A stretch of DNA of 64,000 nt from NCBI RefSeq assembly GCF_003755175.1, contig NZ_RKHX01000001.1, forward strand, positions 62,001 to 126,000, written 5' to 3'. Shown one piece after another: positions 22,644 to 28,769 of the stretch. Origin of the DNA: Cellulomonas sp. PhB150 (lineage in GTDB: Bacteria > Actinomycetota > Actinomycetes > Actinomycetales > Cellulomonadaceae). The notes below the pieces were generated by a model. The model was not told the DNA's origin and did no database searches. It saw only the letters and a program-made list of their open reading frames with translations. The position numbers were made by a program, and so were the translations under genes. Each line of letters starts with the position of its first letter. The stretch's first letter is position 1.

Positions 22644-24125
22644 ATGATCACTCGTGCCGAAGCGGCGTACGTGGGCGCCCTGCGGGCATTCCAGAACCCG
22701 ATGCTGGACCTGCTCCACAAGCGGCACGCGCCGCTCGTCGTGGCACTCCTGTCGGTCACCTTCACCGTCGACCGCCCGACCGTTCCCGTCGCCGACGCGC
22801 ACACCGAGATCAGTGACGCGCTCGAGCAGCTGCGGGCGGCGGGGTACGACGAGTCGGTGCCCACCGGGTCGGCACGCGACCTGTGCCGGCAGTGGGCCGA
22901 CGCCGGCTGGCTGGTCCGACAGGTCCTCGACGACGACGTCGAGGTCTACCGGCTCTCCGCCCACGCCGTCGGCGCGCTCGAGGTCGCCGGGCGCGCAGGT
23001 GGCGCCCGCGCCCGCATCTCGCACTCCCGGGTCCGCACGATGCTCGACGCCGTCGAGCGGCTCGCGCAGGACGCCGACCCCGACGTGCTGGTCCGCATGG
23101 CGCGGCTGGACGCGGAGATCCGCCGGCTGCAGCAGGAGCTGGCCCGCGTCCAGCGCACGGGCACGGTCGAGGAGGTCGACGACGAGCAGCTGCTCGAGGA
23201 GGCCGAGAACGTGCTCCACCTCGCGCGTGAGCTCCCGGCGGACTTCGCGCGGGTCGCCGAGTCGATCAAGGCGATGCAGCGCGACGTGGTCACCGCGCTG
23301 CGGCAGGACTCGCGCCCCACGGGCGACGTGCTGCGCGAGTACCTCGAGCGCGGCGAGCACGTGATGGAGTCGACGTCCGAGGGGCGCGCCTTCGCCGGTG
23401 CATTGCGGCTGATCGGCGACCCGCAGCGGCTCGACGAGCTCGCGACCCAGCTCGACGTCGTCCTCAGCCACCGGTTCACCCACCGGCTCCCGCCGCACCA
23501 GCGCACCGAGCTCCGCGAGATCGGCCGCCGGATCGAGCAGGGCCTCGACCTGGTGTTCGCTGCGCAGCGCGAGGCGTCCTACGTGATCACCGCGCAGGTC
23601 CGCAACCACGACCCGCTGCGCGACCGCCAGGTCGACGAGCTCCTGCGCGACGTGATGACGGGCCTGCAGACCTGGATGCCCGACTCACGCCGGGGCCAGC
23701 CCGTCGAGCCGTTGCGCCGGCTGCCCGTCGCGGAGGTCGACCACCTGCGCCAGACCGCCGGCGACCTGCGGCCCCCACGCCCACCGGCCCCGCTGACCGA
23801 CTGGGACGATTCGGCCGACGTCGACATCTCCCAGGACGAGGCGCGCGCGTGGGGCGGCCCGCACTACGCCGACCTCGCCGAGCTCCTCGCGTCGTCCGCC
23901 ACCGAGGCGGGACGCACGGACGTCGCCGCGGCCTTCAACGCCGCACCCGACGCGCTGCGCCGGCCGGTCGACCTGCTCGGGCTGCTGGAGATCGCCGACC
24001 AGCACGGCATGACCGAGACGGGCGAGCTCGCGTTCGTCGACGCGATCCGCCCGGACGGCACGCGCCGCCGGTTCGCGTTCGGCGGTGTCACCACCCAGAC
24101 GACGAAGGACCACGGCGATGACTGA
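22644..24125 (+). CDS. jetA: JetA/MksF-like subunit (DUF3375) of a Wadjet-type SMC complex
   Basis: The product is a 493-aa DUF3375 protein, the kleisin-like MukF/MksF/JetA subunit. Features are an N-terminal winged-helix region ([21 protein letters not shown]), a helical and coiled-coil middle (about residues 130-250; [17 protein letters not shown]) and a C-terminal domain. In Wadjet it links the JetC ATPase heads and recruits JetB. It is the first gene of a three-gene operon; its end overlaps jetB by 8 bp (ATGACTGA). Codon use and GC look like the neighbours, with no sign of recent transfer. Confidence 0.88.
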
Positions 24126-24786
24126 GACCACGGAAGCCCTCGAGCCCGAGACGGGGTTCATCGACCCCGTCCCGATGGAGGAGGACCCGGCCGAGCTGTT
24201 CGCCGGGGACTCCGGCACGCTCGACGCCGACGTCCGCCGCGTGCTCGTGCGCCTCCTGCAGCGCCGGTTCCTGCTCGCGGACCGCAACCGCGCGCAGTGG
24301 CGGACGCTGCTGGAGAACCAGCAGGCCATCGAGTCGCGGCTGCACGACCTGTTCGTGCACCTCGTCGTCGACCACGAGCGCGGCGTCGCGTACAAGAAGC
24401 AGGTGCGCTCGGCCGAGCTCGACGTGCCGGTGCTGCTGCGCGACGAGGCCTACTCCCGTGCGGAGACCCTCGTGCTCGTCCACCTGCGGACCGTGTACCA
24501 GCGTGAGCAGGGCGCGGGCGAGACCTCCGTGCGTGTGGACGTCGAGGACCTCGAGCGCACCGCGCTGACCTACTTCGACCCCGACGACACGAACGTCGCC
24601 ACGACCCAGCGGGAGATCCGCGCGGCCGTGACCCGGCTCGCCAAGGAGGGCCTGGTCGACGAGGAGTCCGAGGGCCGCTACCGCGTGACGCCGCTGGTCG
24701 AGATCGTGCTGAGCAACGAGCGCCTGGGCGAGCTGCGCGAGTGGCTGGGCGAGCAGGCGCGCACCGAGCAGGAGGCTTCCCGATGA
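24118..24786 (+). CDS. jetB: JetB/MksE-like subunit (DUF4194)
   Basis: The product is a 222-aa DUF4194 protein, the KITE/MksE-type winged-helix partner. An acidic N-terminus (about 1-35) precedes a domain with [37 protein letters not shown], an acidic DFD-type region (LTYFDPDD) and a C-terminal winged helix ([15 protein letters not shown]). The start at 24118 overlaps the jetA stop. A start at 24085 is in frame but deeper inside jetA. The stop overlaps the jetC start as ATGA. Tight coupling implies fixed stoichiometry of the complex. Confidence 0.88.
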
Positions 24787-27700
24787 CGATGGTCGACACC
24801 CTCTTCGGCCTGGTCCCTGCGACCTCGACCGGGCAGCAGTGGATCGCGAGCGAGCTGCAGCTCGTCAACTGGGGCGGCTACCACCAGCACCACCGGGTGC
24901 GTCTCGCGTCGACCGCGACGCTGCTCTCCGGCGGTTCGGGTTCCGGCAAGTCGACGCTGATGGACGCCTACATCGCGCTGCTCATGCCGCACACGACGCC
25001 CTTCAACGGTGCGTCGAACGGCGGCGTCGTGGGGCGGCCGCGCGGCAAGGACCAGCGCAACATCCTGTCGTACGCGCGCGGCAAGCTCGACGAGTCGCGG
25101 ACCGAGGACGGCACGCGGCAACGGGTCCTGCGCGGCGACGGCGAGGACACCTGGTCGGCCATCGCGATGACGTGGGTCGACCAGTCCGGGACCTCGTTCA
25201 CCGGGGTGCGGGCCTGGTACGTCCCGTCGGCGGCACGGACGCTGGACGACGTCGTCGCCGTCCGCGCCACCGCGGACGGCGCGTTCGACCTGCGGGAGCT
25301 CGAGTCCGCGGCGGCGCACCGGTTCGGCCGCGCTGCGGTCGCGGCGGCGGGGCTGACGCCGTTCGACACCGACCGCGACTTCACCGCGCGCCTGTACTCG
25401 ACGCTCGGCATCGGCGCGTCCGGCGACGGCAGCAAGGCCGTCGCCCTGCTCGGCCGGATCCAGGCCGGGCAGCAGATCACCACCGTGGATGCGCTCTACA
25501 AGTCGATGGTGCTCGAGGAGCCGGACACGTTCGCCACGGCCGACGCCGTGGTCGAGCAGTTCGACAAGCTCACCGGCACCCGCGAGCAGATGATCACCGC
25601 GCGGCAGCAGGTCAACGCGCTCGAACCCATCCGTGCGAGCCGGGCTGCCATCACGGAGGCGACCGACCGCCTGCGGGTCATCGACCAGATCGGCACCTTT
25701 GACGACGAGGCCTCGCCGGCCGCCCTGTGGCGCCACGAGCGCCGGCTCGGCCTCCTGCGGTCGCTCGAGGAGGACGAGCAGCGACGCCGCCAGCAGGCGC
25801 AACGGCTCACCGCGGAGACGACGGCCCGGATCGCGGCGGCGAAGTCCGACCTCGACGGGGTCAAGGAGACGTTGTGGTCGTCGGGCGGCGACCGCCTCGC
25901 GCGCGCCCAGCGCGAGGTGGCCGGCGTCCGGTCCCGGCTGGACGACGCGCGGCGAGCGCGAGCGCGGCTGGACGACGTGCTCACCGCGCTCGACGGGGCG
26001 CGGGTGACCGGAGAGGCGGACCTGACGACCCTCGTGGGGCGCGCACGGGCGGCGCTGCAGGACCAGGGCACGAAGGCGAGCGCGCGGCAGGCGCTGTTCG
26101 ACGCGATGTCCGAGAAGAAGGAGGCGGCCGCCGACCTGGCCGAGCTCGCGGCCGAGCGCGCAGCGGTCGTCCGGCGGCGCGACAACATCCCCGGCGACCT
26201 GCACGCCGCCCGGGCAGCGCTGGCCCAGGCTGCAGGGCTGACACCCGACGACCTGCCGTTCGTCGCCGAGCTGGTCGAGGTCCGCACGGAGCACGAGCCC
26301 TGGCGCGACGCGTTCAACCTGGCGCTGGGCGGCTTCGCCACGCTGATCCTCATCGACGTCGCGCACCTCGGCGCCTTCCGCAGAGCGATCGACGCTGTCC
26401 CGACCGCACGCCGGATCCGCTTCGAGGGCGTGCCGACGGGGCTGAGCGAGGACGTCGGCCTCGACGCGCGCACGCTGCCCGGCCGGCTCGACCTCCGCGG
26501 CGGGCCGTTCGCCGGCTGGCTGCGCAGCGAGCTGGCGCGGCGGTTCGCATTCGTCTGCGTCGACACCCCCGGCGAGCTCTCGCAGCACACCAAGGCGCTG
26601 AGCCGCTCGGGCCAGGTGTCCGAGGGTACGCACGGCGCGCACGGCGGTCAGGGCCGGGCCAACGTCCTGGGGTTCACCAACGCGCGCCGTCTCGCGCACG
26701 TGGACCAGCAGATCGCCCGCGCGCAGCGGCGTCAGGAGCTCGCCGAGCAGCGCGTGCTCGAGGCGGAGGCAGGTCTCGACCGGCACGACGCCGAGCGCCG
26801 CGCGTACGAGGCGCTCCTCGAGGTGACCTGGGCCGACGTGGACGTCGACGCGGTCGAGGCCGAGGTGGCCCGGTGGGAGCAGGTCATCACCGACGTCACC
26901 TCCGGCAACCCCGAGGTCACGCGACTGCAGCAGCGCTCCCGCGAGCTCGAGACCGCGATCGACCGGCTCACGCAGGACCTCGGGCGCGCGAAGGACGAGG
27001 TCGCCAGGCTGGACGCGGACTGGTCCGCGACCACCGATGACGTGGACGTGGCACAACGGGCGATCGACGAGGCGGACGTCGTCGTCGGAGCCGAGCAGCG
27101 TGCCTACCTCGAGGGGCTCCTCGGTGCGGCCGAGCCGCACGCCGGCGACGCCCCGGCGGAGGTCCTCGCCCGCGTCGACGCGGTGCTGGCCCGCGCGGGC
27201 GAGGTGCTCACGACGGACCGGCTCGCCGCGCAGCAGGTGATCGGCTCCGCGCGCGAGACGCTGCGCAGGACGTTCGAGACGTTTGTCGAGCGCTGGCCCG
27301 ACCCGAACCTCGGCACCGACCCCGACGCCTCCTACGCAGACTTCGAGCGGATCCTCACCGAGCTCGAGACCAACGGGCTGCACGAGCTCGAGGCCGAGTG
27401 GCGCAAGAGCCTGCTCCGCCTGTCGGGCAACGACCTCACCGACCTGCACAGCGCGTTGAGCCGGTCCGTGCGGGAGATCAAGGAGCGGATCGGTCCGGTC
27501 AACGAGATCCTCGGTGACCTGCCCTTCGCGGACGACGACCACCGGCTGCGGATCGACGCGCGCGACACGCAGTCCGCCGTCGTGGCGCGGTTCCGCAAGG
27601 AGCTGCGCGACCTGCGCGAGCTGCTGGCCACGGAGGCGACCGACGCCGAGCGCGAGCGCCGCTACGTCCGCATGGCCAAGGTGATCGACCGCATCCGCCG

Positions 27701-28139
27701 CACCGCGCCCGACTACGCCGACCTGGTCGACGTGCGCAGGCACGTGCGGCTCAGCGCGGAGAAGGTCGACCTCGACGGCCGGCACGTCGCGCTCTACGAC
27801 CACATCGGCGAGAAGTCCGGCGGCGAGTCCCAGGAGCTCGTCGCGTTCATCGTCGGCGCTGCCCTGCGCTACCAGCTCGGCGACGCGGGTGCCGAGCGGC
27901 CCCGTTACGCGCCGGTGTTCCTCGACGAGGCCCTGATCAAGGCCGACGCCCGGTTCACCGGGCGGGCGGTCGGTGCGTGGCGCGGGCTCGGCTTCCAGCT
28001 CGTCATCGGCGCACCGAACGACAAGTTCGGGGCGCTCGAGCCGCACGTCGACGTGAAGTACGTGGTGCTCAAGGACGCCGCCGGCCTGTCCCGGACGAAG
28101 CCCGTCGCGGGGGTCGCTGCTGCGAGCGGTCCTGCGTGA
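24783..28139 (+). CDS. jetC: JetC/MksB-like SMC-type ATPase
   Basis: The product is a 1,118-aa SMC-like ATPase. Walker [12 protein letters not shown] is near residues 48-58. Long coiled coils (about 270-510 and 660-900) flank a hinge-like globular part (about 515-640). The C-terminal head has signature [11 protein letters not shown] (near 1010) and Walker [15 protein letters not shown] (near 1042). In Wadjet/MksB complexes, heads and arms extrude DNA loops, and circular plasmids are then cut by JetD. AGGAGG stands 6 nt before the ATG. No JetD gene follows: the next gene is convergent and ends 9 nt after this stop. Confidence 0.9.
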
Positions 28140-28148
28140 CGAAGCGCC

Positions 28149-28769
28149 TCAGTCGGTGCCCGCGCCCGGCACCTTGTCGGTGACGTCCTCGTAGTCCTTG
28201 GCCGCCGGCAGGGCTGCGGGTGCGTAGATCAGCCGGACGACGCCGGTCGGGAAGACGTCGGAGCGCAGCAGGTGCAGGGGGTAGATCGGCTCGCCCTCGT
28301 CGAAGAGCCGCTCTCCCTTGCGCGCCGCGACGGGGTGCACGAGCAGACGCAGCTCGTCGATCAGCCCGGCGGCGAGCAGCTGCCGGACGATGGAGACGGA
28401 CCCGGCGACGAGGATCTTGCCGATGCCCGGCTGCTCCTTCAACGCCGTGACGGCCTCGACGAGGTCACCCTCGACCCGCTCGACGCTGCGCCAGCCGAGG
28501 TCCTGCGTGCCGCGGGTCGCGACGATCTTGCGGGTGTCGCCGAGCTGTGCCGCGAACGTGGCGTCCTCACCGCCCGCGGCCTCCCGCTCGGGCCAGGCCC
28601 CCGCGAAGCTGTCGTAGGTCACGCGCCCGAGCAGCATGACGTCGACGCCCTCGTAGTCCTCGCCGACGGCGGCGCCCATGTTCGCGTCGAAGTAGGGGAA
28701 GTGCCATGCAGGGTCGATCTCGACGACGCCGTCGAGGGAGATGAACAGACTGGAGACGATCGTCGACAT
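28149..28769 (-). CDS. Dihydrofolate reductase-like (RibD C-terminal domain) protein
   Basis: The product is 206 aa. The N-terminus SSLFISLDGVVEIDPAWH, the stretch MLLGRVTYDSFAGAWP, the segment ILVAGSVSIVRQLLAAGLIDELRLLVHPV and the final strand VVRLIYAP match the RibD_C/DHFR-like family of actinobacteria. These proteins have an NADPH-binding DHFR fold but lack a proven substrate. A strong ribosome site (GGAGGA) precedes the ATG at 28769. It is convergent with jetC and has no obvious functional link to it. Confidence 0.88.
   Translation of the reverse strand: MSTIVSSLFISLDGVVEIDPAWHFPYFDANMGAAVGEDYEGVDVMLLGRVTYDSFAGAWPEREAAGGEDATFAAQLGDTRKIVATRGTQDLGWRSVERVEGDLVEAVTALKEQPGIGKILVAGSVSIVRQLLAAGLIDELRLLVHPVAARKGERLFDEGEPIYPLHLLRSDVFPTGVVRLIYAPAALPAAKDYEDVTDKVPGAGTD

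Follow-up and report, generated by a model that had tools for sequence, protein, structure and literature searches.

What does a JetABC motor do without its nuclease? The question is raised by an operon in a 64,000-nucleotide stretch of Cellulomonas sp. PhB150 DNA (the window) that encodes the three motor subunits of a type I Wadjet system and no JetD. In the Wadjet model, a JetABC dimer extrudes an entire plasmid, and JetD then cuts it (PMC12647877); with JetD gone, the cutting step of this model is missing. Judged by its sequence, the operon is homologous to Wadjet, yet it falls outside the Wadjet definition for want of JetD. The reading that we favor, with modest confidence and in part by analogy, is that this JetABC is a type I Wadjet motor, derived by deletion of jetD, that works without a nuclease as a chromosome-organizing accessory condensin.

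The operon comprises three genes on the forward strand: jetA (22644..24125), encoding a 493-aa MksF-like kleisin (DUF3375; Pfam PF11855, 411.9 bits; PADLOC JetA1, 710 bits); jetB (24118..24786), encoding a 222-aa MksE-like KITE subunit (DUF4194; Pfam PF13835, 149 bits, and MksE, 32 bits; PADLOC JetB1, 367 bits); and jetC (24783..28139), encoding an 1118-aa MksB-like SMC ATPase (Pfam SbcC_Walker_B and AAA_29; PADLOC JetC1, 1640 bits). All three reading frames are open. Coordinates, Pfam and PADLOC agree on the head-to-tail arrangement of the original prediction, with overlaps of 8 bp between jetA and jetB and 4 bp between jetB and jetC. JetA1, JetB1 and JetC1 are the best PADLOC models, far ahead of any other, and the operon proteins also give weak Pfam matches to the MukB N-terminal domain and MksE. 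The solved structures related to JetA (chains 8dk1, 8q72 and 8as8) and to JetC (chains 8dk2 and 8as8) all come from Wadjet structures. JetC contains a Walker A motif (GGSGSGKST), an SGGES signature and a Walker B motif, each of which is kept in all 115 orthologous operons of the family. In its DUF3375, DUF4194 and SMC ATPase proteins, the operon thus has the motor components of a type I Wadjet; as a kleisin, a KITE subunit and an SMC protein with intact ATPase motifs and no nuclease gene, it also has the composition of a three-gene MksBEF.

The JetD nuclease (DUF3322 plus the JetD_C/DUF2220 TOPRIM domain) is absent from both the operon and the genome. As had been noted, jetC is followed by 9 nt and then by a convergent DHFR-like gene, here matched to RibD_C (28149..28769, minus strand; Pfam PF01872, 58 bits). 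These 9 nt (28140..28148) occupy the site at which C. gelida, C. phragmiteti and other relatives carry jetD, and tblastn with 13 JetD proteins over the downstream region returned no jetD remnant in the window. The search for DUF3322/DUF2220 proteins was extended to the whole genome containing the window (3.8 Mb, 99.97% complete), in which the JetD_C profile (PF09983) has zero matches, DUF3322 has zero matches at E<=10, and C. gelida JetD has zero tblastn matches at E<=10. The PF09983 search works, since among 82 Cellulomonas genomes it finds JetD in 11, and the reference JetD proteins of C. gelida and URHD0024 contain both JetD domains. As the genome holds a single JetC, there is no second Wadjet set that could lend its nuclease. 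A split system, in which a nuclease of the JetD family is encoded elsewhere, as the original prediction had allowed for, is rejected by these three empty searches.

Analysis of relatives indicates where the missing gene would have been. The closest named locus is that of C. rhizosphaerae (JetC 92% identical), and the nearest named loci are all from Cellulomonas. Among 73 good genomes of this genus, 55 have a JetC match and 11 have a JetD of any sort; the operon, missing from about a quarter of these genomes, is therefore dispensable. JetD lies directly behind the orthologous jetC in four of the 11 (C. gelida, C. phragmiteti, sp. URHD0024 and G031), and in most of the others it belongs with a second, distant Jet set. 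The family comparison covers 115 operons (114 fetched orthologues and that of the window, with species names of relatives' operons as inferred assignments) and reaches down to about 45% JetC identity. JetA, JetB and JetC are open in 115 of 115, the sole truncation being that of the L143 JetA where its contig stops. jetD accompanies 12 of these operons, adjacent in 11 and, in the fragmented assembly G192, apparently on another contig. Two further operons without JetD, L111 and L144 (sp. URHE0023, MAG N5CT), retain a jetD remnant behind jetC (E 1.5e-20 and 6e-19), and the reversed-sequence control was empty. In G009 (C15:52791-53216), a partial JetD_C interrupted by a stop codon lies on a different contig from the orthologous jetABC. 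Because close relatives keep jetD or its remnant right behind jetC, the suggestion that this might be a distinct three-gene system does not hold as regards origin.

The genes that remain are under purifying selection. Across 13 close pairs of JetD-less operons, dN/dS is 0.027-0.25 for JetA, 0.049-0.44 for JetB and 0.041-0.191 for JetC, the same range as in pairs with a JetD-bearing member; between the window and C. rhizosphaerae it is 0.147 for jetA, 0.123 for jetB and 0.109 for jetC. JetABC columns that never vary in operons with JetD show no relaxation in operons lacking it, and the sequences thus give no sign of altered function. The idea of a lost JetD-binding surface in JetABC found no support, the column comparison being uninformative on this point. 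The motor is kept, is probably active and by sequence appears unchanged, consistent with the earlier expectation of an active complex, which the universal ATPase motifs and the purifying selection both favor. Its preservation across many losses of the cutter suggests that the motor is useful in its own right.

What it might do can be outlined from the biology of JetABC, MukBEF and MksBEF. JetC would dimerize and, together with the JetA kleisin and the JetB KITE subunits, bind DNA and extrude loops using ATP. With JetD missing at the end of extrusion, the DNA would be compacted or organized reversibly rather than cut, and cleavage of plasmid DNA by this JetABC is unlikely. The DNA organized would most likely be the host chromosome, with JetABC supplementing Smc-ScpAB as an accessory condensin, in the manner of the three-gene MksBEF of Pseudomonas aeruginosa; the Smc-ScpAB kleisin ScpA is encoded in this genome too. 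The most uncertain part of this proposal is which DNA the complex acts on, the chromosome or plasmids.

Comparison with known systems places the operon between a defense system and a condensin. It shares with type I Wadjet (JetABCD; MksBEFG of Corynebacterium glutamicum; EptABCD of Mycobacterium smegmatis) the JetA, JetB and JetC families, their order, the overlapping organization and the best PADLOC models, and its family orthologues include complete JetABCD operons; it differs in that the plasmid-cutting JetD is absent. P. aeruginosa MksBEF likewise combines a kleisin, a KITE subunit and an SMC protein, without a nuclease and beside Smc-ScpAB. That complex organizes the chromosome, and for the Cellulomonas operon such a role is proposed by analogy. 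The two are probably separate lineages, the Cellulomonas operon being nested among actinobacterial operons that keep jetD: it fits the JetA1/B1/C1 profiles and groups with actinobacterial JetABCD in the JetABC tree. Enterobacterial MukBEF is also a three-subunit SMC/kleisin/KITE motor, to which the weak MukB N-terminal and MksE matches point; however, it is distant in sequence and replaces Smc-ScpAB, whereas this genome also has ScpA. A review has proposed that both MukBEF and MksBEF derive from Wadjet through loss of JetD (PMC10586767).

The main rival to the chromosome-organizer reading retains the plasmid as the target. Here, JetABC would fully extrude small circular DNA and then compact or silence it, much as Smc5/6 silences extrachromosomal circular DNA (PMC10586767). 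As JetABC is indistinguishable in sequence from that of JetD-bearing relatives, its plasmid-sensing ability has probably been retained, and selection acts on all of its subunits. The C. glutamicum system bears on both readings. Its four-gene MksBEFG has no effect on chromosome folding (PMC7083940), and deletion of mksG alone mimics deletion of mksB for plasmid copy number (PMC10123090). A chromosomal role is thus not the default for actinobacterial Mks; equally, since loss of the nuclease equals loss of the motor, the nuclease-less motor restricted no plasmids there. On balance, plasmid restriction without a nuclease is rather unlikely.

The history of jetD can be read from the JetABC tree (128 operons, 1821 columns). 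The orthologous operons form one clade with support of 1.0, within which the JetD-bearing operons are scattered. Seven sister pairs with support of >=0.995 differ in JetD, including: C. gelida (present) and C. persica (absent); URHD0024 (present) and URHE0023 (remnant); and G031 (present) and C. uda (absent). Under a losses-only (Dollo) count, 31 losses are required, or 26 once weak branches are collapsed. JetD and JetABC distances are correlated (Mantel r 0.67, p 0.001), and the deep backbones of the JetD and JetABC trees, from separate IQ-TREE runs, agree with high support. The trees and the location of jetD at the same site in orthologues both indicate common ancestry with complete JetABCD operons. 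Taken together, the scattered JetD operons, the seven sister pairs and the common backbone make it well supported, on phylogenetic grounds, that a complete type I Wadjet was present in the family ancestor and that jetD was lost repeatedly, no fewer than 26 times on the assumption that it was never regained. The original prediction had also raised a recently lost component: the loss stands, and the recency is in part contradicted, since the losses are many and the jetD-less form is dominant in the family.

A rather unlikely alternative is that JetD is a module both gained and lost, JetABC having a job of its own and becoming a plasmid weapon when JetD is sometimes acquired by transfer. Fitch parsimony, which allows gains, needs 12 changes as against the 26-31 losses of loss-only counting. 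Inside Cellulomonas, the JetD and JetABC topologies are in weak or mild conflict, and JetD branches are ~3x longer than JetABC branches of the same genomes (L107, L125, L142, L147, L157, L164 and L194). In contrast, the deep backbones agree with high support, the site of jetD is constant, and the remnants show that losses occur. Occasional regain or exchange of JetD may nevertheless have accompanied loss, and such a history would be compatible with the main functional reading of JetABC. By the same branch lengths, the nuclease JetD evolves faster than JetABC.

The region downstream of jetC suggests how the gene was lost in the window lineage. In C. gelida, the gene order is jetABC, jetD, then the neighborhood clusters 9 and 20. 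In C. persica, cluster 9 lies directly behind jetC; in L110, clusters 9 and 20 precede the RibD_C gene; and in the window and in C. rhizosphaerae, the RibD_C gene lies directly behind jetC. The RibD_C family therefore sits further downstream in relatives (L110 and L112), past the genes that trail jetD in C. gelida. This fits a block deletion that removed jetD together with its followers, the exact steps being a reconstruction. No conserved gene has taken its place: the top downstream cluster stands behind 14 of 97 JetD-less operons, and the genes downstream of distant JetD-less operons vary likewise. A replacement effector behind jetC is rejected on account of this variability.

Could the motor instead recruit an unrelated nuclease from elsewhere in the genome and so stay a cutting defense? 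The genome searches covered nucleases of the JetD family only, which leaves room for another TOPRIM or an unrelated nuclease as partner. Nonetheless, JetD_C, DUF3322 and close homologues of JetD are all missing from the genome, the jetD position holds no conserved gene in either the family or the distant JetD-less operons, and the single JetC set leaves no other that could lend a nuclease, making this account improbable. That the operon is a decaying remnant, its nuclease gone and the rest on its way out, is very improbable. JetABC is missing altogether from some Cellulomonas genomes, but jetA, jetB and jetC are open even in orthologues with a JetC identity of about 45%, and the clades without JetD include deep ones (L186-L216). 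The dN/dS of mostly 0.03-0.25 in JetD-less pairs reflects purifying selection, by which decay is rejected; neither values near 1 nor frequent frameshifts, as expected of decay, were seen in JetD-less lineages.

The part of the literature surveyed does not describe repeated loss of jetD in this family. We tentatively propose, as a possibility somewhat short of an even chance, that in Actinomycetes a plasmid-cutting defense has lost its weapon on many independent occasions, and that each loss left behind a JetABC motor near the terminus that is under selection and serves as a second condensin. If true, an immune machine would have been turned into a chromosome organizer again and again, with the change still under way between sister species. 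As the losses are many and independent, and some fall between close sisters such as C. gelida, which has jetD, and C. persica, which lacks it, the role of the motor alone is testable in natural pairs. A practical caution also follows: detection of JetA, JetB and JetC is not equivalent to detection of a plasmid-cutting Wadjet, as most such operons in the family are nuclease-free.

Beyond the family, a JetD_C match lies within 2.5 kb of JetC in 53 of 107 JetC places in the order, with marked differences between its families: 2 of 24 in f11; 8 of 22 in f6; and 17 of 18 in f7. JetABC thus often occurs without JetD, to an extent that depends on the lineage; any divergent JetD undetected by the JetD_C model would lower the JetD-less counts. 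The f11 and f6 places represent separate, distant JetC lineages (~30% identity) that are mostly JetD-less.

The operon keeps stable chromosomal sites, in line with the favored reading. In 34 operons outside Cellulomonas, jetABC lies directly downstream of one common gene, probably leuS, which suggests a fixed ancestral jetABC locus. This gene reads like the 3' part of leuS, its name being a reading of the sequence, and it is found with JetD-bearing and JetD-less operons alike. A mobile origin is rejected, the plasmid records holding distant JetC only (<60% identity, 15 records). In 17 of 18 near-complete Cellulomonas genomes, jetC lies at 0.42-0.47 of the chromosome from dnaA, near the terminus, and in other genera at 0.33-0.45; the near-terminus location may be an inherited position only. 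Finally, C. iranensis (L021, 14922-15029) and G045 (C268:11362-11502) each have, besides the intact operon, another short piece of the 3' end of jetC, lying close to that operon or away from it and perhaps left by duplication.
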